Part shown: piece by piece, positions 1 through 64,000 of the stretch
Layout: every line of letters starts with the position of its first letter
Numbering within the stretch: position 1 is the first letter of the stretch
From: Cerrena zonata
Taxonomy: Eukaryota > Basidiomycota > Agaricomycetes > Polyporales > Cerrenaceae
Assembly (NCBI GenBank): GCA_038087015.1
Contig: JASBNA010000066.1
Span: 167,418 to 231,417, forward strand
Length of the DNA stretch: 64,000 nucleotides
Direction: 5' to 3'
Translations under genes and position numbers: made by a program
The notes under the pieces: model-generated
The model's database searches: none
Told to the model about the DNA's origin: nothing
The model's input: the letters and a program-made list of their open reading frames with translations, nothing else

Positions 1-248
1 TCAGGTTGGGAACCGCTTTACCGGTTAAAGCGATTAAAGTGTGTACGTAGCGTACAGAATTCCAACTAATTTGTGTAGTTTTTTTCCCTCAATTTGTAAG
101 TGCTCGATTGAGGTTTGAGGTTTAATCGTATTACTTCAAGATTCACAACCAATTGCTTCTTTTATTATTCTTTTCATATAATCTTTTAACCTGAGATTGA
201 TTTTTCAAATAGTTTGTAGATCTCCTTACTGTCATTGATCAATTAATC
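1..248 (+). promoter_or_regulatory. 5' flank of EDE1
   Basis: No open reading frame or RNA gene is seen here. The stretch is AT-rich with T-rich runs and leads directly into the short first exon of EDE1, so it should hold that gene's promoter and 5' UTR. No specific factor site is claimed. Confidence 0.5.
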
Positions 249-4494: not shown

Positions 4495-4754
4495 AGTTTT
4501 TAATTTTTTGTTTTCTAAATCGTTTGTATTAATTTTAAAGAATTTTATTGTTTCTGTTTGCGTTTTATGATATATTGTTTCTAGTTTATTTTTTACATAT
4601 TCTTTTATTTGTTTAATTTGTTGTTTTCATAAAAAATTTAGTGTAAGGGATCATTTGTTATTCTATATGTACGTTTTCTTTTACATTATGTTCAACTACA
4701 GCGTATTTTAAATTAAACACAGACTTTTATTAAATAGGATATTAGGATGAGCTT

Positions 4755-5909
4755 CTACTTGAAGGCAGAATCCAAGGCATTTTCAAGGTCACCTACGTCG
4801 AACTCTTCTTTATTTAAATCTTTCAAGTCCTCTACTGGTCTTTCTGCAGTTGGGGTTATTCTGAAAGCGTGACGGTGAACGGGAGTATCCCAATCAACAA
4901 TAGCTGAATGAACAGTTCTTCTGTTATCCCAAACGACAACAGTATTTGGTTCCCACTTGGCTCTCAATTGTAAATCATGTGAGAGGTCAATGTGGGTATA
5001 TAAGAACCTAAGTAAGTAGTCAGATTCCTCTTCTTTCAATTCGACAATCTTTCTTGCGAAAGGTCTATTTAAATAAATGGCCTTTTCGCCAGTAACTGGA
5101 TGGGTTCTGATTAATGGATGTATGTTGGAAGCAGGTTTTCTTCTTTCAATACCACCCAAACGAAGAGAGTTGGAAGCCTGATCTTTGGAAGTGTGTAAGA
5201 CATGTAAGCCAGCCAATCTTTTTTGAAATTCTGGTGATAATCTCTTATAAGCTTCAACGGTATCAGCGAATATGGTGTCTCCTCCTGATTCTGGTCCTTC
5301 TAAAACACTGAAGAAGGTGTATCCAGGAGGTTGGAGTTCGTAGCTGACATCACTGTGGAATGAAACGTTATTATTCTTATTGGAAAATATTCTATCGAAT
5401 TCAGTTGGGTCAGGACGTCTGTAAGTAATGTGTAATTCAGGGTATCCTTTTGGAGCTCCAGAAGTTGGATGGATATGTAACCTACCAAAATATTTACCAT
5501 AATCAACTGCAAAAGCAGGACCTTTTTCACCAAAATCTTGATCTCTGAAAACAGCAACCCCTCTTTTAGCAACATATAAGGCCAATTCATCTTTTCCTTT
5601 ATCACTTAATTCAGAAAGTTGAACCCCGAAAACTTCAGTACCAAACTTTGGAGTAATATTCTTCTGTTTGATTTCTTGATCTTTGGGGAATAAGTTTGGT
5701 AATGTTGGATCAGCTCTCTTACCAGGATCTTCGTGTTTATAGAACTTTTGAGCTGGGAATTTCTCTTTTGGATCCCAGGTAGGTAAGAATTCTGGGTGTT
5801 TGGAAAGAGCTGCACTTTTTCTATTAATAATCAAAGTACCGTCTTCATCAACTTCATCAGTACCGTGATAGAAGTGAATATCGAAATTACCAAATGATTT
5901 AGTAGCCAT
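4755..5909 (-). CDS. JLP1: Fe(II)/2-oxoglutarate sulfonate (taurine) dioxygenase, JLP1-like, copy A
   Basis: This 384-residue protein belongs to the TauD/Jlp1 family, which oxidises sulfonates such as taurine or isethionate with 2-oxoglutarate, releasing sulfite for sulfur assimilation. Visible catalytic features are the iron ligands H185 and D187 (HSDVSYELQPPGYTFF), distal H334 (WDNRRTVHS), and R346/R350 in HRHAFRIT, the pair expected to bind 2-oxoglutarate and substrate. The length matches fungal Jlp1 (about 410). It is the downstream member of a tandem same-strand pair with the gene at 6393-7550; the two are closely similar over their whole length, so this is a local duplication. The residues just before the iron ligand differ (SFHSD here, NWHSD in copy B), which may mark different substrate preference. 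Its upstream gap carries a Met31/32-type and a Cbf1-type site, fitting sulfur-limitation control. The family is certain; the exact sulfonate is not. Confidence 0.93.
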   Translation of the reverse strand: MATKSFGNFDIHFYHGTDEVDEDGTLIINRKSAALSKHPEFLPTWDPKEKFPAQKFYKHEDPGKRADPTLPNLFPKDQEIKQKNITPKFGTEVFGVQLSELSDKGKDELALYVAKRGVAVFRDQDFGEKGPAFAVDYGKYFGRLHIHPTSGAPKGYPELHITYRRPDPTEFDRIFSNKNNNVSFHSDVSYELQPPGYTFFSVLEGPESGGDTIFADTVEAYKRLSPEFQKRLAGLHVLHTSKDQASNSLRLGGIERRKPASNIHPLIRTHPVTGEKAIYLNRPFARKIVELKEEESDYLLRFLYTHIDLSHDLQLRAKWEPNTVVVWDNRRTVHSAIVDWDTPVHRHAFRITPTAERPVEDLKDLNKEEFDVGDLENALDSAFK

Positions 5910-6056
5910 TATGAATAAATTATTGAATGTTTAAATTTAATATATTTGAAAATAACTGCTTGAAATAAGTTCTTTCAGTTCTCTTTTATATGTTTTCCTT
6001 AATGGTGTCGGTTGACCCAAAATGTATCGATATTCGGATGCTAAAGTTAGATAACA

Positions 6057-6065
6057 CCACAGTTT
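6057..6065 (-). promoter_or_regulatory. Met31/Met32-type site (AAACTGTGG on the minus strand)
   Basis: CCACAGTTT on the plus strand is the exact complement of the yeast Met31/32 consensus. It lies about 150 bp upstream of dioxygenase copy A, in the same orientation as the gene. Binding is inferred from the motif only. Confidence 0.5.
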
Positions 6066-6147
6066 TACAGGTATATTTTTTGCAATAATTGAATGGCGAC
6101 CGAACCGAGCCTAGCAGTGGCTGCGAGCCGAAGCTACGATAGTGGCG

Positions 6148-6155
6148 GTCACGTG
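6148..6155. promoter_or_regulatory. Cbf1-type E-box GTCACGTG
   Basis: GTCACGTG matches the preferred Cbf1 site RTCACRTG. It lies about 240 bp upstream of dioxygenase copy A and about 90 bp from the Met31/32-type motif, the usual pairing in sulfur-regulated yeast promoters. Confidence 0.5.
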
Positions 6156-6392
6156 CCTATTGCAACCAATTCTCAAAATTGTTGCAACCATTAAAAAAAT
6201 CACAACAAAGAAGAGCCACAATCTTGACTGTTTAACTTTGCTGTTTAAAGCAAATGAAATATCCCTTGGGTGTGTGGGGAAGATCATTTCCGATTGGGCC
6301 AGATAGCGGATTGAATGCTACATTAATCATCGGTGTAAAAACGATTATCGGATTGCTATTTGAAGAGAGGGAGGTTTGTATACAATAATTAT

Positions 6393-7550
6393 TTACTGGA
6401 AAGATTTATTTAATGCATGTTCGATATCAGCTATGGTATCTTCGGGCTTGTTTAAATCTTTCAAGTCTTCGACTGGTCTTTCAGCCTGAGAAGTGATTCT
6501 GAAGGCGTGACGATGAACCGGGGTATCCCAATCAATGATGGCAGAATGTACTGATCTTCTATTGTCCCAGACAACAACGGTATTTGGTTCCCATCGAGCT
6601 CTTAATTGTAGGTCATGGGCTTGTTCGATATGAGAGTATAAGAACTTGAGTAAATAATCGGATTCTTCTTCTTTCAATTCAACAATCTTTCTTGAGAACG
6701 GTCTGTTTAAATAGATTGATTTTTCTCCGGTTACTGGGTGAGTTCTAATCAAAGGGTGGATATTTGAGACCGGTTTTCTTCTTTCAATGCCTCCTTGAGT
6801 CTTTGAATTAGATGCTTGATCTTGAGAAGTATGTAAGACGTGTAAGCCAGCTAATCTTTTTTGAAATTCTGGTGATAATCTTTTGTAAGCTTCCACGGTA
6901 TCAGCAAAGATAGTATCGCCACCTGAGTCGGGTCCTTCTAGAACACTGAAAAAGGTGTAACCGGGAGGTTGAAGTTCGTAGCTTACATCACTATGCCAAT
7001 TCACTGCCTGGTTTCTGGTGGCAAACACTCTTGAAAATTCAGTTGGATCGGGACGTCTGTAAGTAATGTGTAATTGCGGATGACCTCTTGGGGCTCCAGA
7101 AGTTGGATGGATATGTAATGGACCAAAATATTTACCATAATCAACTGCAAACCCGGGTCCGTACTGGTTAAAGTCTTGATCTCTGAAAACAACAACACCT
7201 CTTTGAGCAACATACAAGGCCAATTCATTCTTACCCTGATCATCTAATTGAGAAAGTTGGATCCCGTGGATTTCAGTACCCAATTTAGGGGTTATATTTT
7301 TCCTCTTATATTCGATATTCTTAGCAAACAAATTTGGAAATGAAGGATCGGCTTTCTTACCAACATCTTCATAATTAAAGAATTGTAATGGAGGGTATTT
7401 CTCACTTGGATCCCAAGTGGGTAAAAATTCCGGGAAATGGCTTATATCTCTCGAAGACTTATTGATGGAAAGCACCCCATCCGAACCCACTTCGTCTAAA
7501 CCTTTGAGAAAGTGGGTATCGAAATCACCATATCTTTGATTTGAAGTCAT
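6393..7550 (-). CDS. JLP1: Fe(II)/2-oxoglutarate sulfonate (taurine) dioxygenase, JLP1-like, copy B
   Basis: This 385-residue tandem paralogue of the gene at 4755-5909 keeps the complete active site: H186 and D188 (NWHSDVSYELQ), H335 (WDNRRSVHS) and R347/R351. The long stretch SYELQPPGYTFFSVLEGP and the C-terminal half are nearly the same as in copy A, while the N-terminal 60 residues and the region before the HxD motif differ more. Copy B keeps the usual family Trp before the iron-binding His; copy A has Phe. The promoter (7551-7838) holds an AAACTGTGG element but no CACGTG. The role is inferred to be sulfonate use as sulfur source in the cytosol. The gene is intact. Confidence 0.93.
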   Translation of the reverse strand: MTSNQRYGDFDTHFLKGLDEVGSDGVLSINKSSRDISHFPEFLPTWDPSEKYPPLQFFNYEDVGKKADPSFPNLFAKNIEYKRKNITPKLGTEIHGIQLSQLDDQGKNELALYVAQRGVVVFRDQDFNQYGPGFAVDYGKYFGPLHIHPTSGAPRGHPQLHITYRRPDPTEFSRVFATRNQAVNWHSDVSYELQPPGYTFFSVLEGPDSGGDTIFADTVEAYKRLSPEFQKRLAGLHVLHTSQDQASNSKTQGGIERRKPVSNIHPLIRTHPVTGEKSIYLNRPFSRKIVELKEEESDYLLKFLYSHIEQAHDLQLRARWEPNTVVVWDNRRSVHSAIIDWDTPVHRHAFRITSQAERPVEDLKDLNKPEDTIADIEHALNKSFQ

Positions 7551-7664
7551 TGTAGATTGATAATGTGGATGGATTGGAAATGTCGAAGAGAACTACCAAC
7601 CTGTTTATATAGTGGTCTGGGTGTGGCTACTGAAACTTTCGCCATTTTTTGCAATCAAGCTTAC

Positions 7665-7673
7665 CCACAGTTT
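7665..7673 (-). promoter_or_regulatory. Met31/Met32-type site upstream of dioxygenase copy B
   Basis: CCACAGTTT (AAACTGTGG on the gene strand) lies about 115 bp upstream of the copy B start. The same nine bases occur in the copy A promoter, in the same orientation to the gene. Confidence 0.5.
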
Positions 7674-7838
7674 TTGAGACAATCGTACGATTTACTACAG
7701 GTGAGAATTATTCGATAATAAGGTATTAATCTATACGTATGCAAGAATTGAAAAAGGAAAATATATAAATAGTAAAATGTTAATGAATGAAATGAACCCA
7801 ACCTCCGTGAAAAGACATAAACGTAAAAAGAACTAAAA

Positions 7839-8426
7839 CTATTTAGCATGAATTTGGCACAATTCATTTTCGCTATTGAATGAAGTAACAATAAAGTGAG
7901 TTTTAGACTCTTTAACTTCTTTTTGTTCCTTTTTAACCGACTTGGGTTTAGAAACCTTATAATCATTAGTTGATGATGGAGGTAATAATAAAAAGTTTAT
8001 ATCGGTAACTGCCAACTTTCTTGTATCAGCACGAGGCGACAGTATAGGTGATGGATAAGCATGAGCACCTTTAGTAACATCAGATTTCACTTCTTCTTCT
8101 TCAGCATTGACTAATTCTGGAGATGAAGTAATTGAAATTGGTGATTCAACCTTGATGGCTTCTTCCTTCTTCTTATCACACGAATCGGGCCACGAACAGT
8201 CCAAAAAGTTCCTTATACATGCCTGGCATTTCCCATCTTCTTTATCCATATCACACTTCTTCTTTCTTCTACGACAAGTAAAGCATCCAGTTTTGGTTCT
8301 TCTTTTAATTGGTTTATCCTCTAATGCGTCACCACTACTAGGGGACTTTTTGGATGCGGTTTTCTTTGTTTTTTGCTTAGTTGGTGCTGCAAAATTCAAC
8401 ACCTGTTGATACTCTTTATAACCCAT
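7839..8426 (-). CDS. small Zn(II)2Cys6 DNA-binding regulator
   Basis: The 195-residue protein has one fungal zinc cluster, C48-x2-C51-x6-C58-x8-C67-x2-C70-x6-C77 (TGCFTCRRRKKKCD...CQACIRNFLDC). A Lys/Ser-rich N-terminus precedes it and an acidic, low-complexity C-terminus follows. The large fungal middle-homology domain common in this family is absent, so it is unusually short. The name and targets are not recognised. It lies on the same strand as, and 0.3 kb upstream of, the two sulfonate dioxygenases, and 2 kb from MUP1, so a link to sulfur or amine metabolism is possible but is only a positional inference. No indel is evident; a lost C-terminal extension cannot be excluded, as the region downstream to 7551 was not resolved into a continuing frame. 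Confidence 0.85.
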   Translation of the reverse strand: MGYKEYQQVLNFAAPTKQKTKKTASKKSPSSGDALEDKPIKRRTKTGCFTCRRRKKKCDMDKEDGKCQACIRNFLDCSWPDSCDKKKEEAIKVESPISITSSPELVNAEEEEVKSDVTKGAHAYPSPILSPRADTRKLAVTDINFLLLPPSSTNDYKVSKPKSVKKEQKEVKESKTHFIVTSFNSENELCQIHAK

Positions 8427-12868: not shown

Positions 12869-14080
12869 CAAGACACCCAAACATCTTGGGTTTTGTTTGT
12901 CCGAAACAGGAAAACACAAGATTGTGGTTGCAAGAATCTAATTAAATCCATAATTAAACGGCCGCAACAATTAGAATTAGATCAATTGGAATAAAGCCTT
13001 ATGGTATTTCATGGCTTGCCCGATGCATTGCATGGAGTTCTTGCAAAAGTACGAACAAGCAGTTGATGAGCAAATCCAAGAATTGACCAATACAAGAATT
13101 GAGAAATACAAGAATTGAGAATTAGTACAAGCAGCAATTGGTGAAATACGCTAACGATTTCGTTGGTCTATGATTAGTTGTAAATAAAAGAATGTAAATC
13201 AAAAAGGTAAATCAAAAAGCAAAAAGAAGAGTCTACAGCACGATGGTTGGTCTATGATTAGTTGTAAATAAAAGAATGTAAATCAAAAAGGTAAATCAAA
13301 AAGCAAAAAGAAGAGTCTACAGCACGATGGTTTCCATTATGGTCTCCCACTAACGTACTCAGCATCGCTCTCAGCAGCTTAATAATTATTGATCGGACGG
13401 GTAATCATGCTTTATGCTGGATATGGCCGTAGACATTTTACTGAAAATTTTGGTTTGTTATGAAAACATTATTTTCAGCATCTGGGAGTTTAATGCTTCA
13501 AAAACGTGAATTTCGTGATATGGTCACTTCCGCTGCACCCAATTTGGACAACTTTGTCAGACCTTGAAGGTCTGCAGATGATGTACTGGCCTATCTATAC
13601 TGACAGGTACAATACATCATCAAATGAAGACACAAATTATATTTAAAGTTTGTGTTAATCCAGAAATGAGGCATTGTGATAATGTGCACATATATATAAA
13701 TAATTAGGCATTTCCATATTAATGGAAAATTCTTCTACTCGACGTGGGCTGTGGACCAAAGTGATGCTTCTAATTGGTTGAAGCATGGTCGACGACCTAT
13801 GGAGAGTTCTTTATATTCGGTAATAAATATTTCTATATAATATTTACAAATTGGCTTTGGATACTTAAGCTTAATCGTAATAAGTTATTTCCTCCCTTTG
13901 AATAACGTGAAAAGATTAATCTGACAGTATCGAATTAATCCACTCTACTACCAGGTATTAGTATGTATTTGACTAATGCTATTTATGCGTGTGTTATGGT
14001 CAACCGTACTAGAACCATGTATCTAATACTATTGGATACTGGTGGTTGATTATGGGCTCGATCTACCCACATAACCCGAT
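12869..14080. other. gene-poor intergenic DNA
   Basis: About 1.2 kb with no convincing gene. It contains an 84-bp tandem duplication (listed separately), small hairpins (for example CAGACCTT/AAGGTCTG near 13560 and ATGCTTC/GAAGCAT near 13770), and, at its end, a 22-bp sequence that recurs as an inverted repeat near 43.1 kb. Confidence 0.5.
13163..13330. repeat. 84-bp direct tandem duplication
   Basis: The block beginning TTGGTCTATGATTAG and ending GCACGATGG occurs twice back to back with an 84-bp period and no visible differences, implying a recent event or an assembly duplication. Confidence 0.9.
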
Positions 14081-14627
14081 AAACTTAAAAACCATTTCTC
14101 CTGACACTTTCCGGAGTTTGAGTCAGAAACAAAAATTACAAACCAAAAAACTTTCCATTAGCCACCATCTAACCCAATTTTTTCCTAGACAGCATGATCA
14201 ATTAAGAAAATTTTGGAAAACTTTTTCAAAATATTCTTTTTCCCAACTTCCTATCGATAATATTCATCTCTTCCATCTCGGGATTTACCTCTGGAAAATC
14301 TGGAATCAACAATCCTGTTCACTTTGCCACCATTCTTTTTCAACACCTATTTCAAAACACCAAGTTCTCACTCATGTGTATACCGGTTGTTCTGTTACCA
14401 GATCCCTTTGGGACTTATCAGGATGTTCCGGTTTAGATCGAACTTGGCTGCAAATTTTCGCACCTTCCAATTTAACCTTTCATTCAATTCCCAAGATAAA
14501 TAGATACCTTTACTTAGTTAAATGTTTTATTGATTTTCGACGATCTTCGTCGGCCTCTTCTGAGGTCCTCACTCGTCGGCTCATTAAAACAAAGGTATCT
14601 TTTTTCTTATCATCATATAAATTCTAA
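14081..14627 (+). pseudogene. C-terminal fragment of LINE ORF2 protein
   Basis: The frame carries a C-x2-C...H-x4-C zinc knuckle (CSLCHHSF ... THVYTGC) followed by SVTRSLWDLSG. This corresponds to the cysteine-rich end of LINE ORF2 proteins, where C..C, H....C and a trailing LW are typical. The reverse transcriptase and endonuclease domains are missing. The frame is open to the TAA at 14625-14627. Confidence 0.75.
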
Positions 14628-15500: not shown

Positions 15501-17370
15501 TCACTCAGGGGTCAATCCAGCATTTTTTGGTCTTTTCCTATTTTTTCGTTCAACTACCTTAGTCCTACTATCATTTCGACTATCACTTTTGTGTTTGCCA
15601 GAGTCTCGGTCAACCTGTAATCTTTCAAATAAGTCTTTCCCGCTGAAATCTTCACCTATCGTATCTCTGCCAACCTGAATACTGTCAAATATATCTCTTT
15701 CGCCAAAATCTTCTTCCATTAAATCTTTCTCATTGGAGTTTCTCGATATGAAATCCCGACCATTATCATTATTCGATGGTCTTTCCAATTCCTTTGGTCT
15801 AAAGCTAATGAGTTTTGGTCTTTTATCTTTCCTCCTTGGAGTTTCTACATTGCGTCCTCGCTTATCACCTCTCTTGCTAAGTAAAAATCCTGCACGATTC
15901 TCAGCCATGGATTGTAACTCATTTAATGAATACTCTTCGAATTCTTCAGGCATAAAGTATCTCAATCTATTATCAAGACCATTCATATAAATCTCAATCT
16001 GCATCTTGGGTGAAATCTCCATTGGGCTACGTATATTGTGCGGACCCATCACCGATAGATACATATGATACTCATCAACAGTATCATTAAAGTGTCCATT
16101 GTACTCATTAATCGAGTACGCCCCTTGTCTATGTCTGAGTACTTTCCGTCTTAGAATTTGACCATAATTTGGTGGGAGATACCTATCGATAAACTTAGCT
16201 CGAAACGATACCCAGTCCAAAAGGATATTCGCCAGAAACTCCTGTTCAAGATACTCCCTGGCTTCTCTGATTGTCAATTCTCTTAGCGCATCGTTGATAC
16301 TTCCATATTTGGTTAAAAGTTCTTCTTCATGGTTATCAATATAATAAAGCCAAAATATGAAGTTTGGTGTGTATCCGTATTTATCACGCCCTGCTCCCTT
16401 AAAAGCAGGAGCTGGTTTAAAGTTTAAAACCTTCGAATTAGAATCTCTTTTTGGTGAAGTGGAACCTATATTTGAAGTAACTATCTTTATCTTATTCGAG
16501 ACCGGAGTTCTATCTTTCGGGCTTGGATTATCTGGAATTGAGTTTCTGTTCAACGTTGTATTCACTGGAGTAATTTCTCTATTTGCAGGTGTCAAATCTC
16601 TATTTGTAGGTGTCGATTCTTTGGTTACAGTATCATTCGTTATATTGCCATTCTCTGGCACATCGGCTCTACTTTCGGGTCTTGAAACTAGCCTTGGTAG
16701 AGTAAAATCTCTGTAAGCTGGGATTGGATCTGTATTTTCAAGATTTTTATCAGTAATCGAATCTCCGTTCAAATTCTCATTTGTTGAATGGGCTCCTGGA
16801 ACCAGAAATGCATTGTCCAAATTTGAGTCTCCATTTGCAGGATCTTTGTTCAAATTCGTATCTACGCTATTTGAATTTGACTCTCTTTCCATTGGTGCTA
16901 AAATACTATCCATGGATATTAGGTTTCTATCTATTGGTGCTAAGTCTCTGACTACCGGACCCAGATATATATTTGCTGGACTCGAAAGTTTATGAGCTTC
17001 TAAAGCCATTCGCTGAAGTTCCTCATTTTCATTAATGGCTTTTACAATATCATCTTTATTGGCGAGTACTTCTGTCATACGAACTTTCATTTGTTCATCC
17101 AAATCAGAAACCTTCTTAATATATGACATCGTCATTTCCTTTTCTTTGTTCATCCAAATCAGAAACCTTCTTAATATATGACATCGTCATTTCCTTTTCT
17201 TTGTTCATCCGCTCAATGGCTTCTGCAATGTGCTTCTCCATATCTTGCATCAACTGAATAGCAGTGTTGTTTATAGTATCTCTTTCTTTAGAATATTGCT
17301 GGATCAAACGTGTCACAAATCTATCACCTGGGCTTTCCGGAGTGTCACTAGGAACAAGCCGCCACTCCAT
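15501..17370 (-). CDS. LTR-retrotransposon Gag-like protein, frame broken by a 55-bp tandem duplication
   Basis: The C-terminal third has the retrotransposon Gag capsid pattern: an aromatic-rich helix region (FIFWLYYIDNHEEELLTKYG), then LLDWVSFRAKFIDRYLPPNY, a LRHRQGAYSINEYNGHFND segment and IEIYMNGLDNRLRYFM. A long Asn/Asp/Ser/Pro-rich middle separates this from an N-terminal coiled-coil-like part. No CCHC knuckle, protease, integrase or reverse transcriptase follows. ATG 17370 is the first Met in frame (MEWRLVPSDTPESPGD). The frame shifts at a 55-bp direct duplication near 17090-17209; without one copy the frame would be exactly 605 codons. It may be a remnant Ty3/gypsy-type Gag or a captured host gene. 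A long open frame with no pol argues for at least partial maintenance. Confidence 0.7.
17090..17209. repeat. 55-bp direct tandem duplication inside the Gag-like gene
   Basis: The block TTGTTCATCCAAATCAGAAA...CCTTTTCT occurs twice with a 55-bp period. Because 55 is not a multiple of three it shifts the frame, and both copies encode the same 21-residue peptide beginning MNKEKEMTMS. Confidence 0.9.
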
Positions 17371-43524: not shown

Positions 43525-43622
43525 GGCAACCTGGCCGAGTGGTCTAAGGCGCCAGGGTAAGGTCACCTTACCATACTTTCCTGGTCTCTTCGGAGGCGCG
43601 AGTTCGAACCTCGCGGTTGTCA
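43525..43622 (+). tRNA. tRNA-Leu(AAG), intron-containing
   Basis: The acceptor stem GGCAACC/GGTTGTC, D arm GGCCGAGTGGTCTAAGGC, anticodon stem CCAGG/CCTGG, a long variable arm and T arm GCGAGTTCGAACCTCGC form a class II tRNA. The loop GTAAGG carries anticodon AAG after T33. A 16-nt intron (TCACCTTACCATACTT) follows position 37 and pairs with the anticodon loop through CCTTACC. The mature length is 82 nt. An identical copy lies at 55988-56085. Confidence 0.95.
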
Positions 43623-43757
43623 TAATTTTTTGCATCGCATGATTTTTTGGTGCGAAACTGATTCGTCGAGATTACCCCATAAAATGGGATAAAAACAGAG
43701 AATAAGTCCCCACAAATTCACGTTGAGGTCCTTTTTTTTTCAATAAAGATCCTTAGC

Positions 43758-53257: not shown

Positions 53258-55839
53258 TTATAAATCAACAACAGCACCCGCTCCAATAGTAGATCCTTCC
53301 CTTCTTATGACGATTCTACCTAACATTTTGCTGTCATCGAATTTACTTAATGGTAAAAGTCTATCGCCTTGTATCTCAATTTCAACCAAAGCTTTTTGTT
53401 TCGATACTAAGTGCATCTTCTTCTTCTTTTTCTTATCATCGTCAATTGCTAAAATTTTAGAAATTCTTGCAGGAACATAAGTATTATTTCTAAATAAGAC
53501 AAAAGGTGTTCCCACCAATAATGGTTTGTTCATATTGAATAAATTAATTCTAGCTGTAAGTTTATTCACTGAAGCAACCAGAGAACCAACCTTCAGAATC
53601 AAGTCACCTATACTGATGTCATCTGTAGACTTGTTAGTCAATTGGTTAGTCTTGAATGAAATTGTGGTTGTTTCACCTTTAACTGCTATATTAACATTTT
53701 GACCTCTAACCTTGACACTTTGAACTTGTAGGTATTCTTTAGTCGGTGATACCTCTACCGTCTCACCAGGTTGTATAAATCCAGAAAGAATTCTACCTTT
53801 GACTGCAAATTCGGAACTTGAGATATCATAGATATCATTGATAGCCAAACCAAACTCTTCGGCAGTAACAACGCTAACAGGATCCTTGGTTAAGTCACTC
53901 GTTGAGATTTTAACCTTTTCTAAATACTCAATAAGAGTTGGGCCTTTGTACCAACCTAATTCTTTGACTGATTGGTCAGCTTTTACAACATTGTTACCAG
54001 TCAAACCCGAGATAGGGATGAAGGATACGTTTTCAGAGTCAAATCCAACATCAGAAACTAAAAAGCTCTTCAATTGATTTTGAATATCCAAAAATCTTTC
54101 TTCAGACCAGTGCTCTTTATCTAACTTATTGATAGCGACACAAATTTTTTCAATCCCCAAGTTTTTACATAATAATGTATGTTCTTTGGTTTGACCATCC
54201 ATAGCAAAACCTGCTTCAAATTCTCCATTGATCGAATCAACAACTAATAAAGCAATATCCGCTTGAGTCACACCTCCTATCATTTGCGGAACAAAGTCTT
54301 TATGACCAGGTGCATCAATAGCAGTAAATATAGTATTGTTTGTTTCGAATTCGGTAGCACAGATATCGACAGTAACACCACGAGATCTTTCTTCAGAGGT
54401 TTGATCCATAACCCAAGCAAGAGCGAAAGATCCCTTACCTGATTTCTCGGCTTCTCTCATTAATTTATTGATGGTTTTGGCATCCACAACACCTAAATCA
54501 TACAATAGACGACCCATTAAAGTAGATTTACCAGCATCGACATGACCAATGACCACAAACGATTTGTGGGCTTTGCTGTAGGCTTTATTGGTGGAAAGTT
54601 CATTTTCTATGTTGATCTTCTTGAAAGGTTTAGTTGGCTTTGGGGGCAATTTTTCCTTTTGGTCAGTTTCCTTCTTATTTGAGTCAGAAATCTTCAAGTC
54701 ATTCATTCCTTCTTCAAATGCAGTTTTTTGGGCATTGAGAATTTTGTCATCAGGACTTGGCTCTTCGAAATTACTTTTAGCTTTTTTAACATTTTCTATA
54801 TTCAATTCAATGTTAGTAAGAGGACAAAAAATTGATCCTGCCAGTCTCTTAAGTTTATTCCTATTTTGAGGTACGTGATTTTCCTGATCGTTTTGATTCT
54901 CGCTTTGGTGGAAAAGAAATGCAGAAATTGAGTTATGAGGGTATTTTAAAACATTTTTGTCATCAAGAGATAGATCATATACAATTATAGGAGCCTCTGG
55001 TGTTATTTTCTTTGGTTTTTCTATTATCGAAGAAGATCCTTGTTCGTCATTCGTATTAACTTCGAGATGTTCTTTAGTATCTTGTTTCTTGTTCAAACTG
55101 TTAACAGGCTTAATATTGGATTTGCGAAGGTTAGCTATCTTCTCGAGAGGTTTTCTTGCTAAAACCCTCTTCTCTGATGAGTCCTTTCCCTTTGGATTAA
55201 CTTGAAGGTTCTCCAATATTCCCAAGGACTTATTGTCGGTCACCTGTTCCTCTGGCTTCTTCTGCGCTCTAGACTTCGCTAGAGATGCCAATTTAGATAT
55301 GCGTTGAGGTTTCTCCTCTGGATTATTTGAGTTGTCTTTCTCTTGTTTCATTCTGGCTCTCTCTAGAGCGAGTTTTTGTAATTTTGAAAGTGGCTTTGAC
55401 TCTGTTGAATCTTCTATAAAGAAATATAAATATTAGAATCCTAGAACTCTTGTTAACGGGAAACAAAACGATTTCAAAATTTCGAAAAATCAAAGACCTC
55501 TTTGCTCAGTTTCTTTCGGGCGATTAATAGGCAAACTATGAGTCAATGACGGAATAAAGAGAAAATTTGAAGATTGAAAAAAAACATACCTTTCTTCTTT
55601 GGAAATTTAGACTTTAACTCCTCTATGGCATCACTTAACTCATAATAATTGTAATATAAGGCCTCCTTTAACGCCATTTCGTCTATGGAATTGTTATAAG
55701 AAGCGATTAATTCCTTCAATTTTGGCAAAGTCTCATACAATTTATCATACTCTTCGTCATTCAAACTGTCTTCATTGAATTCTTCTTCACCTGCGGAATT
55801 GTCGTAATCTGCTAGATCATCATCATTGAATGGGGCCAT
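53258..55839 (-). CDS. HBS1: Hbs1/Ski7 translational GTPase, two exons
   Basis: Hbs1 works with Dom34 to rescue stalled ribosomes; Ski7, its sister in S. cerevisiae, links the exosome to the Ski complex. Exon 1 (55839-55590) encodes the HBS1 N-terminal domain (ALYYNYYELSDAIEELKSKFPKKK). Exon 2 (55413-53258) encodes a Lys/Ser-rich linker with two similar helices (LSKLQKLALERARMK and RISKLASLAKSRAQKK) and the eEF1A-like GTPase (G1 GHVDAGKST, G3 DAPGHKDF, G4 NKLD), then the beta-barrels. The spliced CDS is exactly 802 codons. Non-WGD yeasts generally have one gene in place of HBS1 and SKI7; alternative splicing of it to give both protein types is known in some. Possible in-frame alternative acceptors lie at 55410 and 55401. 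Confidence 0.93.
55414..55589 (-). other. spliceosomal intron in HBS1/SKI7
   Basis: The 176-nt intron has donor GTATGT (55589-55584), a branch-like TTCTAAT about 20 nt before the 3' end, and acceptor TATAG (55414-55415). It is phase 1, so AAG AAA G joins AA GAT as Lys-Lys-Glu-Asp. The acceptor is a TAGAAG tandem. Confidence 0.88.
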
Positions 55840-55987
55840 TGTTGGTAAAAGATGTAATTAATCCTCTAGACTTCAGAGAGAAGAACTAAAAAAAAAATCT
55901 AAATTGATTGACAAACCAATTTGCTGAGTTAATGCGACAGTTGCTTGAAGGTTCTTTAGATGAGAAGAGGAAAAAAAAAGAAATTAG

Positions 55988-56085
55988 TGACAACCGCGAG
56001 GTTCGAACTCGCGCCTCCGAAGAGACCAGGAAAGTATGGTAAGGTGACCTTACCCTGGCGCCTTAGACCACTCGGCCAGGTTGCC
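55988..56085 (-). tRNA. tRNA-Leu(AAG), intron-containing, second copy
   Basis: The reverse complement is identical over all 98 bases to the copy at 43525-43622, including the 16-nt intron. The two genes face opposite ways. Confidence 0.95.
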
Positions 56086-56302
56086 TCCAATTACACATGT
56101 TACAGGTATGTTGGTACTATGTTCGGCTTTATTTCATTCATTTAAAATTATCTAATGTCTATAAAAAATTGAAAATAAGGTACGTATTAGTATATAATCG
56201 TTATTAGATTATAATTTGAAAATTTCTCATTCATTACTGAACAAAAAAACATACCTTTATACTTAAAAAAAGAAAAAAAAAAAAAAAGAAAAAAAATTTC
56301 AA

Positions 56303-56425
56303 CTTAATCAAACGTTTTATCTATTTTCGACCACCTTCAAGTTCCGACTCTCCTGAAGGCCTTACCCGTCGAACAGTGATAACGAAAGTATCTTTTTATT
56401 GGCATCATATAAATTCAAAATTCAA
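56303..56425 (+). mobile_element. degenerate LINE 3' relic
   Basis: The segment ACTTAATCAAACGTTTTATCTATTTTCGACC... through GTATCTTTTTATTGGCATCATATAAATTC aligns with the end of the LINE ORF (compare 14514-14625) with many substitutions. It is older than, or from a sister family of, the two good copies. An A-rich stretch precedes it at 56265-56300. Confidence 0.6.
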
Positions 56426-57453
56426 AATTTGTTTGTCCCTTGTGGTTTGTTTCTAGGTATATCATTGATTATACTCATAAAACTAAGCTTTGGGTCAGAA
56501 CTTGTCTTTAATTTCTGACTACAGTTTATATAAGGAGAATAAATTACCCTGCTTTCGGATCTTTCTGTCCTTTTACATATGGCTTTTCTGATAGCATAGA
56601 ATGAACAATAGCTACTGGGAATTAATCGTAGAAATTGAGGCGAGCTGTAACCCACAGACCCTCTGAATCTTTTATTTCTTCGATGACTTCGTCCATTTGA
56701 ATGTTGAGTAGTTTTGAGAAAGTTTTGAAAATTTATAGGTTCCTTGATCGTCAATATTATTCTATGAAAAGAAAAATATTTACTCTTCGATTGGAATAAA
56801 TAGAATCATGGAAAAGCGATATATTGAATACACATGAAATATATATTATGAAACGCAGAAATTTTTACTGAAAACTGAAATAAAGAACCTAGTATTCATG
56901 TTTTATCTCAAAGACAATGTGGGTGAGTTAATCAGTAAAAACTATATCCAAACTTTGAAGTCTGGCAGAAGATATAAGTACCAAATGTTTAGTTATTGTA
57001 CGATCCAAATGAAGAAGATTTGGACTCTTACACAACTATTCTAAAATTAAAAGATTTATTTATGGGGCCTTCAATGTGCTTTCAGATGTTGTTCTTGTTT
57101 TTTTTTGCAGCAAAAAACACTCTAAATTGTTACAGATTTATGAATCTCAGAGCCCAAATCAGATACTTGTCAATATTTGGAAAAATGCATTCAATGACAT
57201 GAAGAAAAGTATAAGTGCTTAGATTGACAATGGAAAGTATGGAAGTACCTTAAGTATATTGGCACCCAAAAGAGAAATTGAAACAACTACACTTCGTAAA
57301 TCTGAAGTTCCCTGAATGCCACCCCAGGAGATACCAGATAGGCATGGCTCTTATTATTCAGTGCATAAGTTGAAGTATCCAAAGATAACTACATGGCGTG
57401 TAACAAGCTAGACGAGGGACTATATATTGAACTATAATAAATCATCATTAGTA
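56426..57453. other. gene-poor DNA between LINE relic and the BBD gene
   Basis: About 1 kb with no recognisable gene. A minus-strand frame of 110 codons (56422-56754) lacks any known feature. It may be decayed transposon DNA. Confidence 0.4.
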
Positions 57454-57861
57454 TTAAGCTAAATCCACTACGAACAATCCGTTATCAGCAATTGAGCCTA
57501 ATTTCTTATCATCTGGACTAATGTAAATTCCATCGCCACCTAACAGAAAGTTAATACCAGAGTCCTTCATGGCTTGAGCCATAGAAACAAAACTTTTTTC
57601 GGAATCAGGAGCATAAAGGCAATTATCCAATGTTAATTCAGAACCACATGCCAACGAAAGGACGACAGTTCCAGAACCCTCTGCGTTTACTTTTCCATCG
57701 TTACCCAAGACCACTTCTCTAGGTTTTTCAAAAGTTTCAATTGATTTAAAGAGAGAACGGTCTGAAAATATATGTTGGGAAACATTAGTCACAACAAAGA
57801 TTCCACTATTTGATTCTTCCGAATGGTCACCACCACATGAATGACTTCCGCAACAAGACAT
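57454..57861 (-). CDS. small protein with a Ty1/copia protease-type (Pol beta-barrel) domain lacking the catalytic Asp
   Basis: The 135-residue protein aligns end to end with the protease-like beta-barrel of Ty1/copia Pol proteins: SDRSLFKSIETF, then REVVLGNDGKVNAEGSGTVVL, LTLDNCLYAPDSEKSFVSMAQ, INFLLGGDGIYI and a final NGLFVVDLA, which corresponds to the start of the GAG-pre-integrase segment. The catalytic DSG triad region (typically WILDSGASRHM) reads IFVVTNVSQHI, so the catalytic Asp is gone while the following His is kept. The N-terminus MSCCGSHSCGGDHSEE is rich in Cys and His, suggesting metal binding. No integrase or reverse transcriptase follows. An open, stop-free frame of exactly one domain suggests a domesticated gene. 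The function is unknown. Confidence 0.75.
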   Translation of the reverse strand: MSCCGSHSCGGDHSEESNSGIFVVTNVSQHIFSDRSLFKSIETFEKPREVVLGNDGKVNAEGSGTVVLSLACGSELTLDNCLYAPDSEKSFVSMAQAMKDSGINFLLGGDGIYISPDDKKLGSIADNGLFVVDLA

Positions 57862-59049
57862 GATTGGATTATTAAGATTGAAGCAATTAAGCTGGTACTT
57901 TTCCAGAAGAAATAGTATATTAGATTCAAAGTCGATGCAATCACCAGACCTCGAAGAAAATTTGGTACCCCACTTTTTTGTATACGCACGCCACTCACCA
58001 CACTAGACCAACTCGCTGATAAGATGTTACAATCTACAATTAAGACATATTCCGATAGGCTCCATGGGCCCTACCAAGCTCCCAAATGTTATATTGATGG
58101 AATTGGCTCTTAAAGCTTGTCAAAAACTATCAAAAATGCAAAAAATTGACCAGTTCATTACGTCGGAGTTTAGTACAAAGTCCATTTATAAGCATTTAGT
58201 TGAAATTTTAACATTAAGCAGATTGATATAAGGTCAATATCGTATACTACTTTGTCTTGAGTTCTTTCTTTTTGTAGAAGTGAATTTTGATTGATTTTTC
58301 AAAAAAACTGAATTATGATGTTTTTTGCAGTAATTCGCATCCAATTACTATGTATGTGAAATTCGATGTTTTACATTTTTTTCTTTTATCACTAGAATTG
58401 CAACTTTTCTGATCATGATACTATCACGACACTTGCTTCGAGCCAAAACAAGCCATAATCAACTACAAGGACCTTTTCTGTATTCTTAACGTCAATATTT
58501 TCGAAATATATGGGGAGGATTGATTGATTTCCAACTAAAAATCCTCTCTTGAATCCAGCAAACAGATTCAGTATCTACACCTCTAACAAAAAAAATTTGT
58601 AAAGTTGAAATAAACTAAAAGCAACGGTTTTTCTGTTCGTAAGATGGAATTTTTTTTTAAAAATTTTGGACACGATCTTCAACGGGGGAGGGTCTTTGTC
58701 TGAGACATTATTAATTTTGTAAACAAAAGACGTTTTGATGTTTTTATATGGTTACGTCAAAAATCACCAGACCCATCTCCCATGAGCTCAAGAACTGACT
58801 TGGATATGAGCAGTTTCAGAAGAACACGGGATATCCAACACATTTGGGGATCATCTTTTGGTATTTCCGTTTTATATATGTAATTTAAGTGCCATTTCCA
58901 GCACTTTTACTTCTCAAGTTCTCTTTCAACAGAACCTAACAAATTATATCACCGTGAATTCTCCTCAGGTAAAGTATTAAATATCAAAAATAAAAAAAAC
59001 ACGGAGAATACTATTAGAAAATCGTAATAGTAATCTTGAAAAAAATAAC
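57862..59049. other. gene-poor DNA between the BBD gene and tRNA-Ala
   Basis: About 1.2 kb. A short plus-strand frame (58062 on, about 55 codons, MGPTKLPNVILMELAL) has no recognised relative. The rest is AT-rich with no feature I can support. Confidence 0.4.
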
Positions 59050-59122
59050 TGGACGAGTTGGGAGTCGAACCCAAGACCTTTCGCATGCTAAGCGAACGCG
59101 CTACCAACTACGCCACACGCCC
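59050..59122 (-). tRNA. tRNA-Ala(AGC)
   Basis: The reverse complement folds as a normal class I tRNA: acceptor GGGCGTG/CTCGTCC, D arm GGCGTAGTTGGTAGCGC, anticodon arm TTCGC-TTAGCAT-GCGAA with anticodon AGC, and T arm TTGGGTTCGACTCCCAA. There is no intron. Confidence 0.94.
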
Positions 59123-59317
59123 ATTTTATGAACAATAAAATGGAATGTTCCTTGATATTCATTACTTCCCGTCTGGGAGGTTGACGGTTCGACTCTGGTC
59201 GGCGAAAATTCATGAGAATAGAAAAAAGTTTACACCAAGATCTACACTGAAACATAAACCGAATATATGAATCAAGTAATGGCCATATTTCATGAACTTA
59301 TACTAACAATAAGCAGA

Positions 59318-59864
59318 AAACTTAAAAACCATTTCTCCTGACACTTTCCGGAGTTTGAGTCAGAAACACAAATTACAAACCAAAAAACTTTCCATTAGCC
59401 AACATCTAACCCAATTTTTTCCTAGACAGGATGATCAATTAAGAAAACTTTGGAAAACTCTTTCCAGGTATTCTTTTTCCCAAATTCCTATCGATAATAT
59501 TCACCTCTTCCATCTCGGAATTTACCTTTGGAAAATCTGGAATCAACAATCCTGTTCACTTTGCCAACATTCCTTTTCAACACCTATTTCAAAACACCAA
59601 GTTCTCACTCATGTGTATACCGGTTGTTCTGTTACCAGATCCCTTTGGGACTTATCAGGATGTTCCTGTTTAGATCGAACTTGGCTGCAAATTTTCGCAC
59701 CTTCCAACTTAACCTCTCATTCAATCCCCAAGATAAATAGATACCTTTACTTAGTTAAATGTTTTATTGATTTTCGACGATCTTCATCGGCCTCTTCTGG
59801 GGTCCTTACTCGTCGGCTCATTAAAACAAAGGTATCTTTTTTCTTATCATCATATAAATTCTAA
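59318..59864 (+). pseudogene. C-terminal fragment of LINE ORF2 protein
   Basis: The same frame as in copy 1 with about a dozen amino acid changes. The zinc knuckle CSLCQHSF ... THVYTGC and LWDLSG are kept. The reverse transcriptase is missing. Confidence 0.75.
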
Positions 59865-60025
59865 ACTCGATAAATTAATTACATCCTTTTCTTAATCAAC
59901 TAAAGTGGTTTTTTCAAATTTTCCACTATGCACCCCTTTTTATATATCTCTATCTACTCTCTTTATCTCTATATAGTTAGTATTTAGATCAAATATATAA
60001 AAATATACGTGAAAAAAAAAAAAAA
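59318..60025 (+). mobile_element. 5'-truncated LINE-type retrotransposon, copy 2
   Basis: It is closely similar to copy 1 (14081-14793) across ORF end, 3' UTR and poly(A) (60012-60025), with scattered substitutions and a small length change in the 3' UTR. It starts at the same AAACTTAAAAACC. A second, minimal insertion of the same family follows directly. Confidence 0.87.
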
Positions 60026-60035
60026 ATCGGCGATC

Positions 60036-60135
60036 TACTATGCACCCCTTTTTATATATCTCTATCTACTCTCTTTATCTCTATATAGTTAGTATTTAGA
60101 TCAAATATATAAAAATATACGTGAAAAAAAAAAAA
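60036..60135 (+). mobile_element. minimal 100-bp LINE insertion with 7-bp target-site duplication
   Basis: The segment is the last 87 bases or so of the LINE 3' UTR plus a poly(A) tail, repeated beside copy 2. It is flanked on both sides by GCGATCT (60029-60035 and 60136-60142), a clean target-site duplication. Confidence 0.88.
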
Positions 60136-60142
60136 GCGATCT

Positions 60143-61175
60143 TTAGTTATAGTGTTTTGGGAACACTAGAACGTCGTGATGGCTAGTAATAGTCAGAGCA
60201 GGATCACTACTTACGTCGGGAGATGAACGGAAAGAGCTAACAGGACTTGTTGGCGATTGAAGTGAATCCGCTAGATATAGGTAGGTGCGATTGAGTTATG
60301 CTGCAGTCTCTTGGAAGCACGTACACCGAGTAGAGGGAGCTTAGACATGATTGGTGGACGAACTTTGAAGGGATGACAAAGTTCGTCGAGAAAAATAAGA
60401 AAGAAAGAAAAGAACAACTATCAAGAAGTTAACAAGTTTTTACGTTGTTATTTCAGTTATTATTATCTTAAGAGTATGTATCATAGTATGAAAAGGATTC
60501 TAGTATCATGTCTATAACTCATCTATCTTGTGTTCGTGGGATTAGTCTGTGATGGATTAGTCTACGTGTGTTGAGGTTGGAAGATGGACTTCTTCATCCT
60601 CTGTGTTGAGATATAGCGATATCTCTGGATCTGAAAGATAGTTAGGGTTGTTTAGATAGGATGCTGAGATGCATCTCATGTGACTTGGGATGATCTACTC
60701 CTAGTCTAGTTCAACATAGCTTGATCAGAAGTGTGTGTTATAAAAGGCTTAATGAACCTTGTTATAATGCAGGCCATCAGCTCCTAGACGAGTTGGATGA
60801 GTGTAATAGATTAGTGATAGAGTTTATTAATAGGACGTCTTATAGAGGTCGACTGCTTCGGGAGGAAGCTAGGCCGTTTGTGTTTAATATGAGTTATTGT
60901 AGAATAGCTTGAGTATGTTTCTCTAGGATAGAGTTATACATTGGAATAGATTCAGGATCATAGTCTGGCGCCTAATTAGGTTGCAATTACCCTTTTAGGA
61001 CAGGTATGAGGCCAGATTATATTACAAACAAAATTATGGGCTTAGACTTTAAGAAGTACAATATATAAAATAATATTTGAAGCTTAAATATAATCAATAG
61101 TTATTAAATATATATTCTTATATGTCAAAAAAAAAAATTCTTCAAACTCATTTGATTATAGTACAATAAATAAAA
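60143..61175. other. G-rich, gene-free DNA upstream of HSP12-like
   Basis: About 1 kb whose plus strand is richer in G and T than nearby DNA. A frame of 63 codons (60721-60912) has no recognised features. It includes an 11-bp perfect hairpin (60357-60387) and a TTATATGTC(A)n motif near 61115. It may be decayed retroelement DNA; no LTR boundaries could be fixed. Confidence 0.4.
60357..60387. repeat. perfect 11-bp hairpin
   Basis: GACGAACTTTG and CAAAGTTCGTC are exact complements separated by nine bases. Confidence 0.85.
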
Positions 61176-61373
61176 ATGTCTGATTTTGGTCGTAAAGATA
61201 TCTCTGAAAAAGTTCAATCTGCTGTTAAACCAGATTCTGAAAAATCTACTCCTGAACACTTGAAGGACAAGGTCACCGACAAGGCTGACAACGCTGCTGG
61301 TAAAGGTACCTCTGACAACAACAAGTCTTTTGTTCAACAAGCTGCTGACACTGTTTTCGGTAACAACAAATAA
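61176..61373 (+). CDS. HSP12: Hsp12/Wh11-like small stress protein
   Basis: The 65-residue protein starts MSDFGRKDISEKVQSAVKPDSEKST and continues KVTDKADNAAGK, the Hsp12/Wh11 pattern (MSDxGRK, KPDSxKS, TDxxDNxAG). These are unfolded, membrane-associating amphipathic proteins induced by stress and stationary phase; the short form resembles Candida Wh11 more than the 109-residue S. cerevisiae Hsp12. Codon use is biased to AAG/GCT/TCT, suggesting high expression. No stress element (CCCCT) is evident in the near upstream region, which is transposon-derived. Confidence 0.88.
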   Translation: MSDFGRKDISEKVQSAVKPDSEKSTPEHLKDKVTDKADNAAGKGTSDNNKSFVQQAADTVFGNNK

Positions 61374-61708
61374 GCTGCTCTTCTGCTTGGTTTTTATAGT
61401 TTTATGAATAAACGTTGAAATTACTGTCTAAAAAAAAAAAAAAAAAAATCTCAGAATCAAGAGTATACACCCTAATGATCATTTAGAATGAATATTTCGG
61501 GTTCGTTTGGTATAATAAAGATAAAATTGTTGCAAATATCATAAAAAATTAAGAAAAATGAAGGAAAAGATAAATGAGAAAAATTGGTTTTACTGAAATT
61601 AGCATAGTCACATTAAATAGCTCTTGGCTATCATACTACATCATTCATATAAATATATATTTATTTACACTAAATAGATTAATTATATATATATATATAT
61701 ATCTATTA
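61374..61708. other. convergent intergenic region HSP12-like / amidase
   Basis: AT-rich 335-bp gap with an A run near 61431-61448 and a TA repeat at about 61685-61702. It contains both transcript ends. Confidence 0.4.
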
Positions 61709-63430
61709 TTAATATACTTTGTATAAGTCGGCTCCTAAAGCTTTAGTAATAGATTTACCAGCAGCTACAACTTCTTCATCAAAGTATCTTCTACCGGACA
61801 ATTGTAAACCAATTGGTGCTCCAGTAAAGTTTTCTGGAATATAGTTATCCAATTCTAATTTCTCTAAATCGCTTCTAAACTCATAGGTGCTATGGCTATC
61901 GTCCCACTTATCGACTTTAGGATCTTGAAACAATCCAGTCTGGAAAGCTAAAGTAGGTAAATCTAAGATATTGAAAAGGGAAGTGTAAGACCAATTATAA
62001 ATCTCTTCTGGTCTAGGTGCAACATTATTGTAAGCAGGACTGATAATAAAATCGATTTTATTTTCATTCAAAAAATCAGTATATTCTTGTTTTAAAGTAT
62101 CTCTAATTATATTCAATTGACGATTTTCGGTGATTGAGAATGGACGACCTCCATCACCAAAATTAAGATTCCATTGGGTCAATTTAGTCAAAGGCTCTCC
62201 ACTTTCTGCAAGAAGAGTCTTTTGAGCATCATTACCATCACAACAGTACATCTTGTGGACGGTGTCATAAGCCAATTTAGTCTTTATTGGTTTGAACTCG
62301 ACAACCTTAGCGCCTGCCTTGGACAATTTGTCAGCAGTCTCTTTCAACCCTCTTTGAATAGGAGGAGTTGGTTTCACCAAACCATCATCGTACATAATAG
62401 CAATGGTCAATGAATCAACTTTAGGAACGTCAACTTTTCTCCAAGGTAATGGGATGACATTACAATCAGTTTCCCAAGGCTTACCTTGGTTGATATAAAT
62501 GTTCATCCAAAAATCGATATCATCGACAGATCTAGTCATTGGACCTTGCACTGCAGGGACACTTTCTTGACCAGCACCAGAAGAGACACCACCAGCAAGT
62601 GAAACTCTTTTAGAGGTAGGTCTTAAACCAATGCAACCAGAAAAAGCGGCTGGACCACGAATAGAACCACCAATGTCACTACCAATACCAATTGGGGAAC
62701 CACCAAACCCAACAATAGAACCTTCACCAGAAGATGAACCCCCGGGTGATAAGCCCAAATTATGGGGATTTCTAGCGGCACCTACAACATTGTTATTAGA
62801 ACACAAATGCATCAAAGTTTGAGGTTCATTGGTTCTAATATAAAAGACAGCACCCAAGTTCTCCAAAATTTGAGTGGTGTTACCATGTTTAGGAGTTATA
62901 TTATCAATCAAGGAAACATAACCTGCATGAGTTGCTTTACCTTTATAGTGCATGTGCTCTTTCAAGGAAATTGGTAAACCATGTAATGGTCCAATTGGTT
63001 TTTTCTCTTTTGCCAAATATTCATCCAAGTACTTAGCTCTTTCTAAACCTTCATCATTGAAGATTTCCATAGCACAATTGGTGAATTGATGGGCGATGGT
63101 AGCTCTCTTAGCAAAAGCCTTGAAGACCTCAACAGCCGTCAACTCACCTTTAGCCAATTTAGGTACCAATTCAAAAGCTGGAGTATCGGTGATTTTGAAT
63201 TCCGCTTCACTAAGTAAGTTTTTTTCATAAATATACTTCAATGGGTTGAATTGTTTAGTTTTCAATTCATCAATATCACCCGGTAACTCAATGCTATATT
63301 CAGGAAGAATGGCATCTTCCAATTTCTTCCGGTAAGCTTCAAGTTTTGGAACGAAGCTGGCATATTTTTCAGCATTCTCGAAACCTTCGAAGTTCTCCAG
63401 AGTTAAAAAGCTAGTGTGAGAGATTGACAT
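61709..63430 (-). CDS. AMD2: amidase (acetamidase/Amd2 type)
   Basis: The 573-residue protein has the amidase signature with a complete Ser-cisSer-Lys triad: K157 (GLPISLKEHM), S232 (SPGGSSSGEGS) and S256 (DIGGSIRGPAAFSG). It hydrolyses short amides to acid and ammonia, so it can supply nitrogen. Similar fungal proteins include S. cerevisiae Amd2 (549) and Aspergillus AmdS. The substrate is not determined. Two GATAAG sites lie upstream, fitting nitrogen control. The frame is intact. Confidence 0.9.
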   Translation of the reverse strand: MSISHTSFLTLENFEGFENAEKYASFVPKLEAYRKKLEDAILPEYSIELPGDIDELKTKQFNPLKYIYEKNLLSEAEFKITDTPAFELVPKLAKGELTAVEVFKAFAKRATIAHQFTNCAMEIFNDEGLERAKYLDEYLAKEKKPIGPLHGLPISLKEHMHYKGKATHAGYVSLIDNITPKHGNTTQILENLGAVFYIRTNEPQTLMHLCSNNNVVGAARNPHNLGLSPGGSSSGEGSIVGFGGSPIGIGSDIGGSIRGPAAFSGCIGLRPTSKRVSLAGGVSSGAGQESVPAVQGPMTRSVDDIDFWMNIYINQGKPWETDCNVIPLPWRKVDVPKVDSLTIAIMYDDGLVKPTPPIQRGLKETADKLSKAGAKVVEFKPIKTKLAYDTVHKMYCCDGNDAQKTLLAESGEPLTKLTQWNLNFGDGGRPFSITENRQLNIIRDTLKQEYTDFLNENKIDFIISPAYNNVAPRPEEIYNWSYTSLFNILDLPTLAFQTGLFQDPKVDKWDDSHSTYEFRSDLEKLELDNYIPENFTGAPIGLQLSGRRYFDEEVVAAGKSITKALGADLYKVY

Positions 63431-64000
63431 ATTGGCAACTCAATGATAATGATAATTTGAATCGAAACTGAAAAAAAAAAGGAAGAAGACTCAGAATTCC
63501 CAAAAACCAATCTGTAAAGGAGGAATAGTTGCACTTTATCTACCAAAGGGGAGAACGATAAGGGGCACTTTAAATAATTTGGATCGAAATCACTATAGTC
63601 GATAAGAAAGACGCGGGAGTTCTATAGTTTTTTTTTTTTTTTTTGTTTTGTTAGGGTGAAAAGCGGAATGGAATGAGTTGCCTAATAGGGATTCAATGAT
63701 TTTGGGGTAATATCGGGTCGGCTAGAACCTACTCGTTTGGGAAGATTTCATTTTGAGAAGCTAATATGAATACACCAACCAATGAAAACGATTATTTCGA
63801 ATCAAGATGAGTTACTTAAGGAACTGTAATAGAATTTGCCAGTTGATTAGATTCTGCATCTCGAAGTGTTGCATTCCGAAAATAAGTAACGGAAAAAAAG
63901 ATATTTGCAACCTTTTATGAGCGAGGTTACATTTTCTACAATTTAGGGTTTAATTAGTCTGCATTGATTACACACTCAATTAGGAAGTTAAGCCGACAGC
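63431..64000. promoter_or_regulatory. amidase promoter region with two GATAAG sites
   Basis: GATAAG at 63557-63562 and 63601-63606, 127 and 171 bp upstream of the start, match GATA-factor sites. A T run is at about 63629-63644. No gene is seen to the window end. Confidence 0.45.

Follow-up and report, generated by a model that had tools for sequence, protein, structure and literature searches.

A short gene in the DNA analysed here, a 64,000 nt stretch of contig JASBNA010000066.1 (termed the window, whose end is also the end of the contig), is probably a host gene that arose by exaptation of the protease domain of an ancient Ty1/copia element. A reading made from the sequence alone (the sequence-only reading) had proposed that this open reading frame (ORF) is a domesticated gene. 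The proposal is supported by its single domain, by a ratio of nonsynonymous to synonymous divergence (dN/dS) of 0.10 and by the lack of a resident copia element of the same sequence. The case for domestication combines one domain, a single locus, loss of the catalytic Asp and Gly, purifying selection, host-like codons and the finding of no other adjoining copia sequence. Taken at face value this evidence would justify high confidence, which we lower somewhat to allow for the small data set.

The ORF occupies the minus strand (read from 57861 to 57454), and the plus strand there has nine stops. The exact coordinates and the stop-free length of 135 codons had been given by the sequence-only reading, which did not state the strand. 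Translation under genetic code 12 yields a stop-free protein of 135 amino acids that begins MSCCGSHSCGG. The choice of code 12 is assumed and affects a single codon, CTG at residue 106; the named relatives of a neighbouring Ufe1-like gene in a protein search include Scheffersomyces, Metschnikowia and Candida, which we take to be CTG-clade yeasts. The nearest in-frame upstream stop lies 144 nt before the ATG. As the open frame runs to 182 codons on the window haplotype and to 156 codons on a second haplotype (contig C79), the frame common to both barely exceeds 135 codons. One database protein, P0002, has 99% identity with the window protein and differs by S14T, within the N-terminal tail described below, and at residue 106, the latter owing to the code used.

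The only Pfam match in the protein is a significant one to PF22936 (Pol_BBD), which scores 54.2 bits where the cut-off is 27 (E 1.9e-14), in agreement with the earlier description of a lone copia Pol barrel domain. This score, together with the conservation between haplotypes, makes chance very unlikely as an explanation. The whole of the Ty1/copia protease domain aligns, with His30, Gly64, Leu82, Tyr83, Pro85 and Ser93 kept, and the GDGIYI and GLFVVDL landmarks that had been pointed out are both found. An alignment was built with 49 homologue rows (48 distinct proteins selected from 78 non-self profile matches, one entered twice); His30, Gly64 and Leu82 are present in every row. Unlike the family, the window protein lacks the catalytic Asp and Gly and carries Phe in place of conserved L22 and L91, columns that hold Leu in 47 of 49 rows each. 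In alignments with copia proteases the catalytic Asp-Ser/Thr-Gly triplet, already described as a replaced DSG site, is absent and Val24-Thr25-Asn26 is found instead; the homologue rows have D in 46 (N in three), S in 46 and G in 47. Because Val-Thr-Asn stands in place of the triplet, the protein is not expected, from its residues, to catalyse as an aspartic protease.

A structure model predicts a retropepsin-like fold, and its best structure matches are Ddi-type domains. These matches would suit an origin outside copia, in which a shrunken cellular retropepsin resembling Ddi1 has converged on the copia profile. We consider such an origin extremely unlikely, given that Pol_BBD is the only family matched in Pfam, that the copia alignment spans the whole domain length and that a sequence search of solved structures yielded no relative at E <= 5. 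The likeness to Ddi1 and ASPRV1 is that of a retropepsin-type fold, here predicted, in a host gene; ASPRV1 is described as self-processing (PMC11402058). In contrast to active host retropepsins of this type, the position of the catalytic Asp is Val24 in the window protein.

The assembly (55.5 Mb in 171 contigs) carries the gene on the window contig (C66) and at the start of C79, at the same locus between the same transfer RNA (tRNA) genes, with proteins that are 96% identical and with no third copy. The start of C79 is the counterpart of window position 54495, and C79 matches window positions 54495-59143 and 61620-63998; the stretch separating these two matches in pieces only. Interior pieces of 6 kb from C66 and C79 each match only themselves in the assembly, so the overlap most simply represents two haplotypes at a contig junction; a segmental duplication is less likely. 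Whole-genome duplication as the source of the second copy is disfavoured, both by these single-copy interiors and by the Ufe1-like gene, which lacks another close copy. For alleles the divergence is high (14.5% in the flanks, and a dS of 0.21 in a neighbouring amidase gene). The second haplotype covers most of the last 9.5 kb of the window (54495-63998 against positions 1-8416 of the C79 locus, L004), with identities of 73-99% per 100-base block in 54500-59143 and 94% over 61620-63998, and with ~59144-61619 mostly unmatched.

Comparison of the two haplotypes shows purifying selection on the ORF at the protein level. They differ at 14 of 408 bases, with 10 synonymous and four nonsynonymous changes and no indels (dN 0.0127, dS 0.123, dN/dS 0.103; binomial P 9.6e-5), and 10 of the 14 changes are at third positions. 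The same method gives a dN/dS of 0.043 for the amidase. When 14 random changes were simulated at the flank transition rate, a mean of 10.2 codons were changed, and four or fewer were changed with a probability of 0.00045. Across the 2,408 aligned flanking bases between the tRNA genes, 350 mismatches and 26 gap events were counted; at these rates the ORF would be expected to carry 59 mismatches rather than 14 (P 1e-13) and 4.4 gap events rather than none (P 0.012). Since synonymous divergence is close to that of the flanks, selection acts on the protein. The dN/dS is thus far from the value near 1 that the sequence-only reading had named as telling against domestication.

The assembly does contain copia relics, such as a stop-bearing one at C8:572100, and a truncated remnant of copia that merely happens to have an open frame would also agree with our failure to find an orthologue. 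Such a decaying relic is nevertheless very unlikely in view of the low dN/dS, the lack of indels, a divergence about fourfold lower than in the flanks and the host-like codon usage, and because 81% of 2,000 copies simulated at the flank rate gained a stop. Low divergence is also seen beside the ORF, at 8.7% over the 184 aligned bases that precede the ATG, as opposed to 18.0% in the next 316, and at 9.7% in the 113 bases directly downstream of the stop. The 16-base core of the upstream block, allowing at most one mismatch, is confined in the whole assembly to this locus and its second haplotype. That the conserved block reaches ~180 bp upstream could point to an RNA, or a regulatory DNA element, that overlaps the frame, or to gene conversion between haplotypes. 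However, neither predicts the excess of third-position changes or a dS (0.12) near the flank divergence, and a search of window positions 54000-64000 at Rfam gathering scores finds a tRNA-Ala alone; we give these explanations very little credence.

A family search of the assembly returned at least 41 copia-type places. By coordinates, a gag_pre-integrs match adjoins 33 of the 41, and none adjoins the gene. The eight places without one comprise five beside other copia sequence (C26:525372, C9:1066712, C8:694762, C20:618981 and C18:676919), the C8:572100 relic of the same domain with three stops, and the gene with its second haplotype. Some copia loci (L034, L035 and L036) share identical protease regions, which suggests recent copia activity in the assembly. 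A whole-assembly protein search scored 13 candidates and gave three places at E <= 0.001, namely the gene, its second haplotype and a copia element on C26 at 31% identity. The latter is the best non-self match in the assembly, and the full-length copia of the same sequence that would have marked the gene as a fragment was not encountered. A closer comparison with individual copia loci covered 34 of the 39 family places other than the gene and its second haplotype (C73, C135, C97:17179, C11 and C12:334573 being left out). The protein was compared with frames of the first 30 copia loci and then with 70 frames from those and later loci, and the seed alignment of copia loci holds 23 of 34, the 11 without a match to the seed being omitted.

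The 70 frames, each of at least 200 amino acids and including antisense frames, were also used as tblastn queries against both haplotypes. Below E 1e-4 only the domain was found, at ~29% identity, and no gag or pol was found beside the gene on either haplotype; one further match (44 amino acids, 29.5%, E 6.8e-4, plus strand ~56859-56990), present on one haplotype only, was taken as chance. A search of the interval between the tRNA genes brought up no direct repeats resembling long terminal repeats (LTRs) in either haplotype, although a solo or strongly decayed LTR could escape this search. The only direct pair there, 36 nt at 72%, is on the window haplotype with both members on one side of the gene, and C79 has none. 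The flanks match once per haplotype, except for a 120-bp repeat tail and a 38-bp match. With a best identity of 31% and no adjoining LTR, gag or pol found, the idea that the gene is a piece of a resident copia element was rejected.

Codon usage of the ORF is host-like. Its G+C content at third codon positions is 0.27, compared with 0.20-0.46 in 22 chosen host frames of the window and 0.46-0.49 in three copia pol frames. On a score of host versus copia codon usage it obtains +0.18 per codon, inside the span of 0.09 to 0.30 that the host frames show on leave-one-out; the contrast with the copia scores (-0.21 to -0.30) is flattered, as those frames also served to train the score. Compared with the protease domain of Ty1/copia elements, the gene is stand-alone, has a new N-terminus, occupies a single locus and is at most ~30% identical to resident elements. 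Descent from an old copia insertion whose other parts are gone would be the simplest reading of these sequences.

A single-sequence database search (eight candidates) returned only the gene itself. A profile search matched 79 of 618 candidates, and the 78 non-self matches resemble copia-type pieces. The motif pattern is missing from 32 of these 78; most of the 32 begin downstream of the triplet, and one database protein (P0156) has the triplet intact in a form that the pattern missed. Two results of these searches weigh against a domesticated gene: the triplet is changed in seven of the 78 non-self matches as well, and neither search found an orthologue. The lack of orthologues had been put forward by the sequence-only reading as grounds for doubt, and none was indeed found, but the test is a weak one. 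In a control search with the 348-amino-acid Ufe1-like neighbour, 83 proteins matched of 1,776 candidates, and the nearest non-self protein, from the nearest other organism, was 62% identical. At that identity a 135-amino-acid orthologue would share about 12 five-residue words, and should therefore be findable if it is there and evolves no faster. The gene seems confined to its lineage, but the nearest sampled relative is distant. No relative of the protein was found among viral contigs. Searches of the open-licence PMC literature brought up no yeast gene described as a dead, stand-alone copia protease, which is a weak absence.

The Cys/His-rich N-terminus recognized in the sequence-only reading has five Cys or His residues in its first 13, a density reached by five of 10,376 13-mers from the 22 window frames. 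None of the 78 non-self profile matches has five within 13 residues in its first 60. The 57 bases of the tail show no DNA difference between haplotypes, the first differing codon being codon 21, and the tail is predicted to be disordered.

The expected location between two tRNA genes was confirmed, both being on the minus strand (Table 1). The tRNA-Leu(AAG) gene, which has an intron, was missed by an intron-free scan, and a copy 98% identical lies 12 kb away at 43525-43631. The gene had also been placed in a block rich in long interspersed nuclear elements (LINEs). Within the tRNA interval this finds weak support in one 120-bp repeat tail (56302-56423), which recurs at five other places and whose LINE identity is an assignment of ours. 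The repeat family (14046-14627, 59355-59864 and 56302-56423) has a Cys/His motif in an ORF and probably represents 3' ends of a LINE; no Pfam domain was found in four related or nearby frames. A 550-amino-acid ORF on the minus strand at 15501-17153 has a Retrotrans_gag match just below the cut-off (23.6 against 24.1 bits), and is possibly another retroelement-derived gene. The amidase gene at 61709-63430 is tandemly duplicated on C79 (L004 6132-7853 and from 8418; C79:8421-10139), the duplicates being 98% and 86% identical to the window amidase protein. The assembly is very large for a CTG-clade yeast.

Table 1. Features of the locus, in window coordinates.
Feature	Position	Strand	Evidence
ORF, 135 codons and stop: probable domesticated copia protease-type gene	57454..57861	-	Pfam PF22936; dN/dS 0.10 between haplotypes; no indel
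Cys/His/Gly-rich N-terminal tail, residues 1-19 (MSCCGSHSCGGDHSEESNS)	57805..57861	-	Cys/His density; haplotype identity; predicted disorder
Former catalytic triplet, now Val24-Thr25-Asn26 for Asp-Ser/Thr-Gly	57784..57792	-	Alignments and residue counts
Pol_BBD (PF22936) match, residues 28-99	57565..57780	-	Pfam; retropepsin-like model
Conserved block immediately upstream; candidate promoter and 5' untranslated region	57862..58045	-	Lower haplotype divergence
Flanking tRNA-Leu(AAG) with intron	55987..56085	-	tRNA identification
Flanking tRNA-Ala(AGC)	59049..59123	-	tRNA identification; Rfam

A domesticated Gag is already known in yeast from DRT2 of Saccharomyces cerevisiae, a gene that lies between tRNA genes and derives from the Gag capsid of the subfamily it restricts (PMC10951436). 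The two genes would be alike in being retrotransposon fragments that a yeast has kept, short and intact, with tRNA genes on either side. By contrast, the window gene is protease-derived and far from any resident element found, and it shows no Gag capsid C-terminal domain origin of the p22/Drt2 type, Pol_BBD alone being found. The same report gives a dN/dS of 0.84 over strains for DRT2, as against 0.10 over two haplotypes here; constraint is apparently stronger on the window gene, although the methods differ.

By analogy with the Gag-derived p22 and Drt2 of Saccharomyces, the domesticated protein might be a restriction factor, in which the dead protease would pair with live copia protease, or compete with it for substrates, and block Gag-Pol processing in trans. 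A target probably exists among the many copia-type places, some with identical protease regions, and a kept domain with lost catalysis is what a dominant-negative protein needs; the position between tRNA genes also recalls the DRT2 locus as that source describes it (PMC10951436). Against this, the closest resident copia protease is only ~30% identical, which would make mixed dimers, and with them copia control by co-assembly, less likely; Drt2 itself comes from the Gag of its target subfamily, and the 135-residue protein has no capsid domain. We therefore think restriction unlikely, its odds overlapping with those of domestication, which it presupposes.

Retention of the domain under selection without catalysis suggests a binding role for the domesticated protein, which may work without enzymatic activity. 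Retroviral proteases are obligate dimers, and the barrel could likewise form a stable, probably dimeric, binding module. Domain retention and the Cys/His density of the tail together lead us to propose that the tail was gained at domestication and would bind either a metal ion or a partner through thiols. A dimer bearing two metal- or thiol-reactive tails might then act as a metal- or redox-linked scaffold or adaptor. We offer this scaffold mechanism tentatively. Equally tentative is the reading that, in a lineage-restricted gene, a copia protease lost its catalytic Asp, acquired a promoter of its own together with a metal-binding Cys/His tail, and turned into a regulator without enzymatic activity. 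If the proposal is true, a yeast would have domesticated the protease of a copia element, and not its Gag, and a stand-alone dead copia protease under constraint would show that the barrel alone can be co-opted as a binding module.
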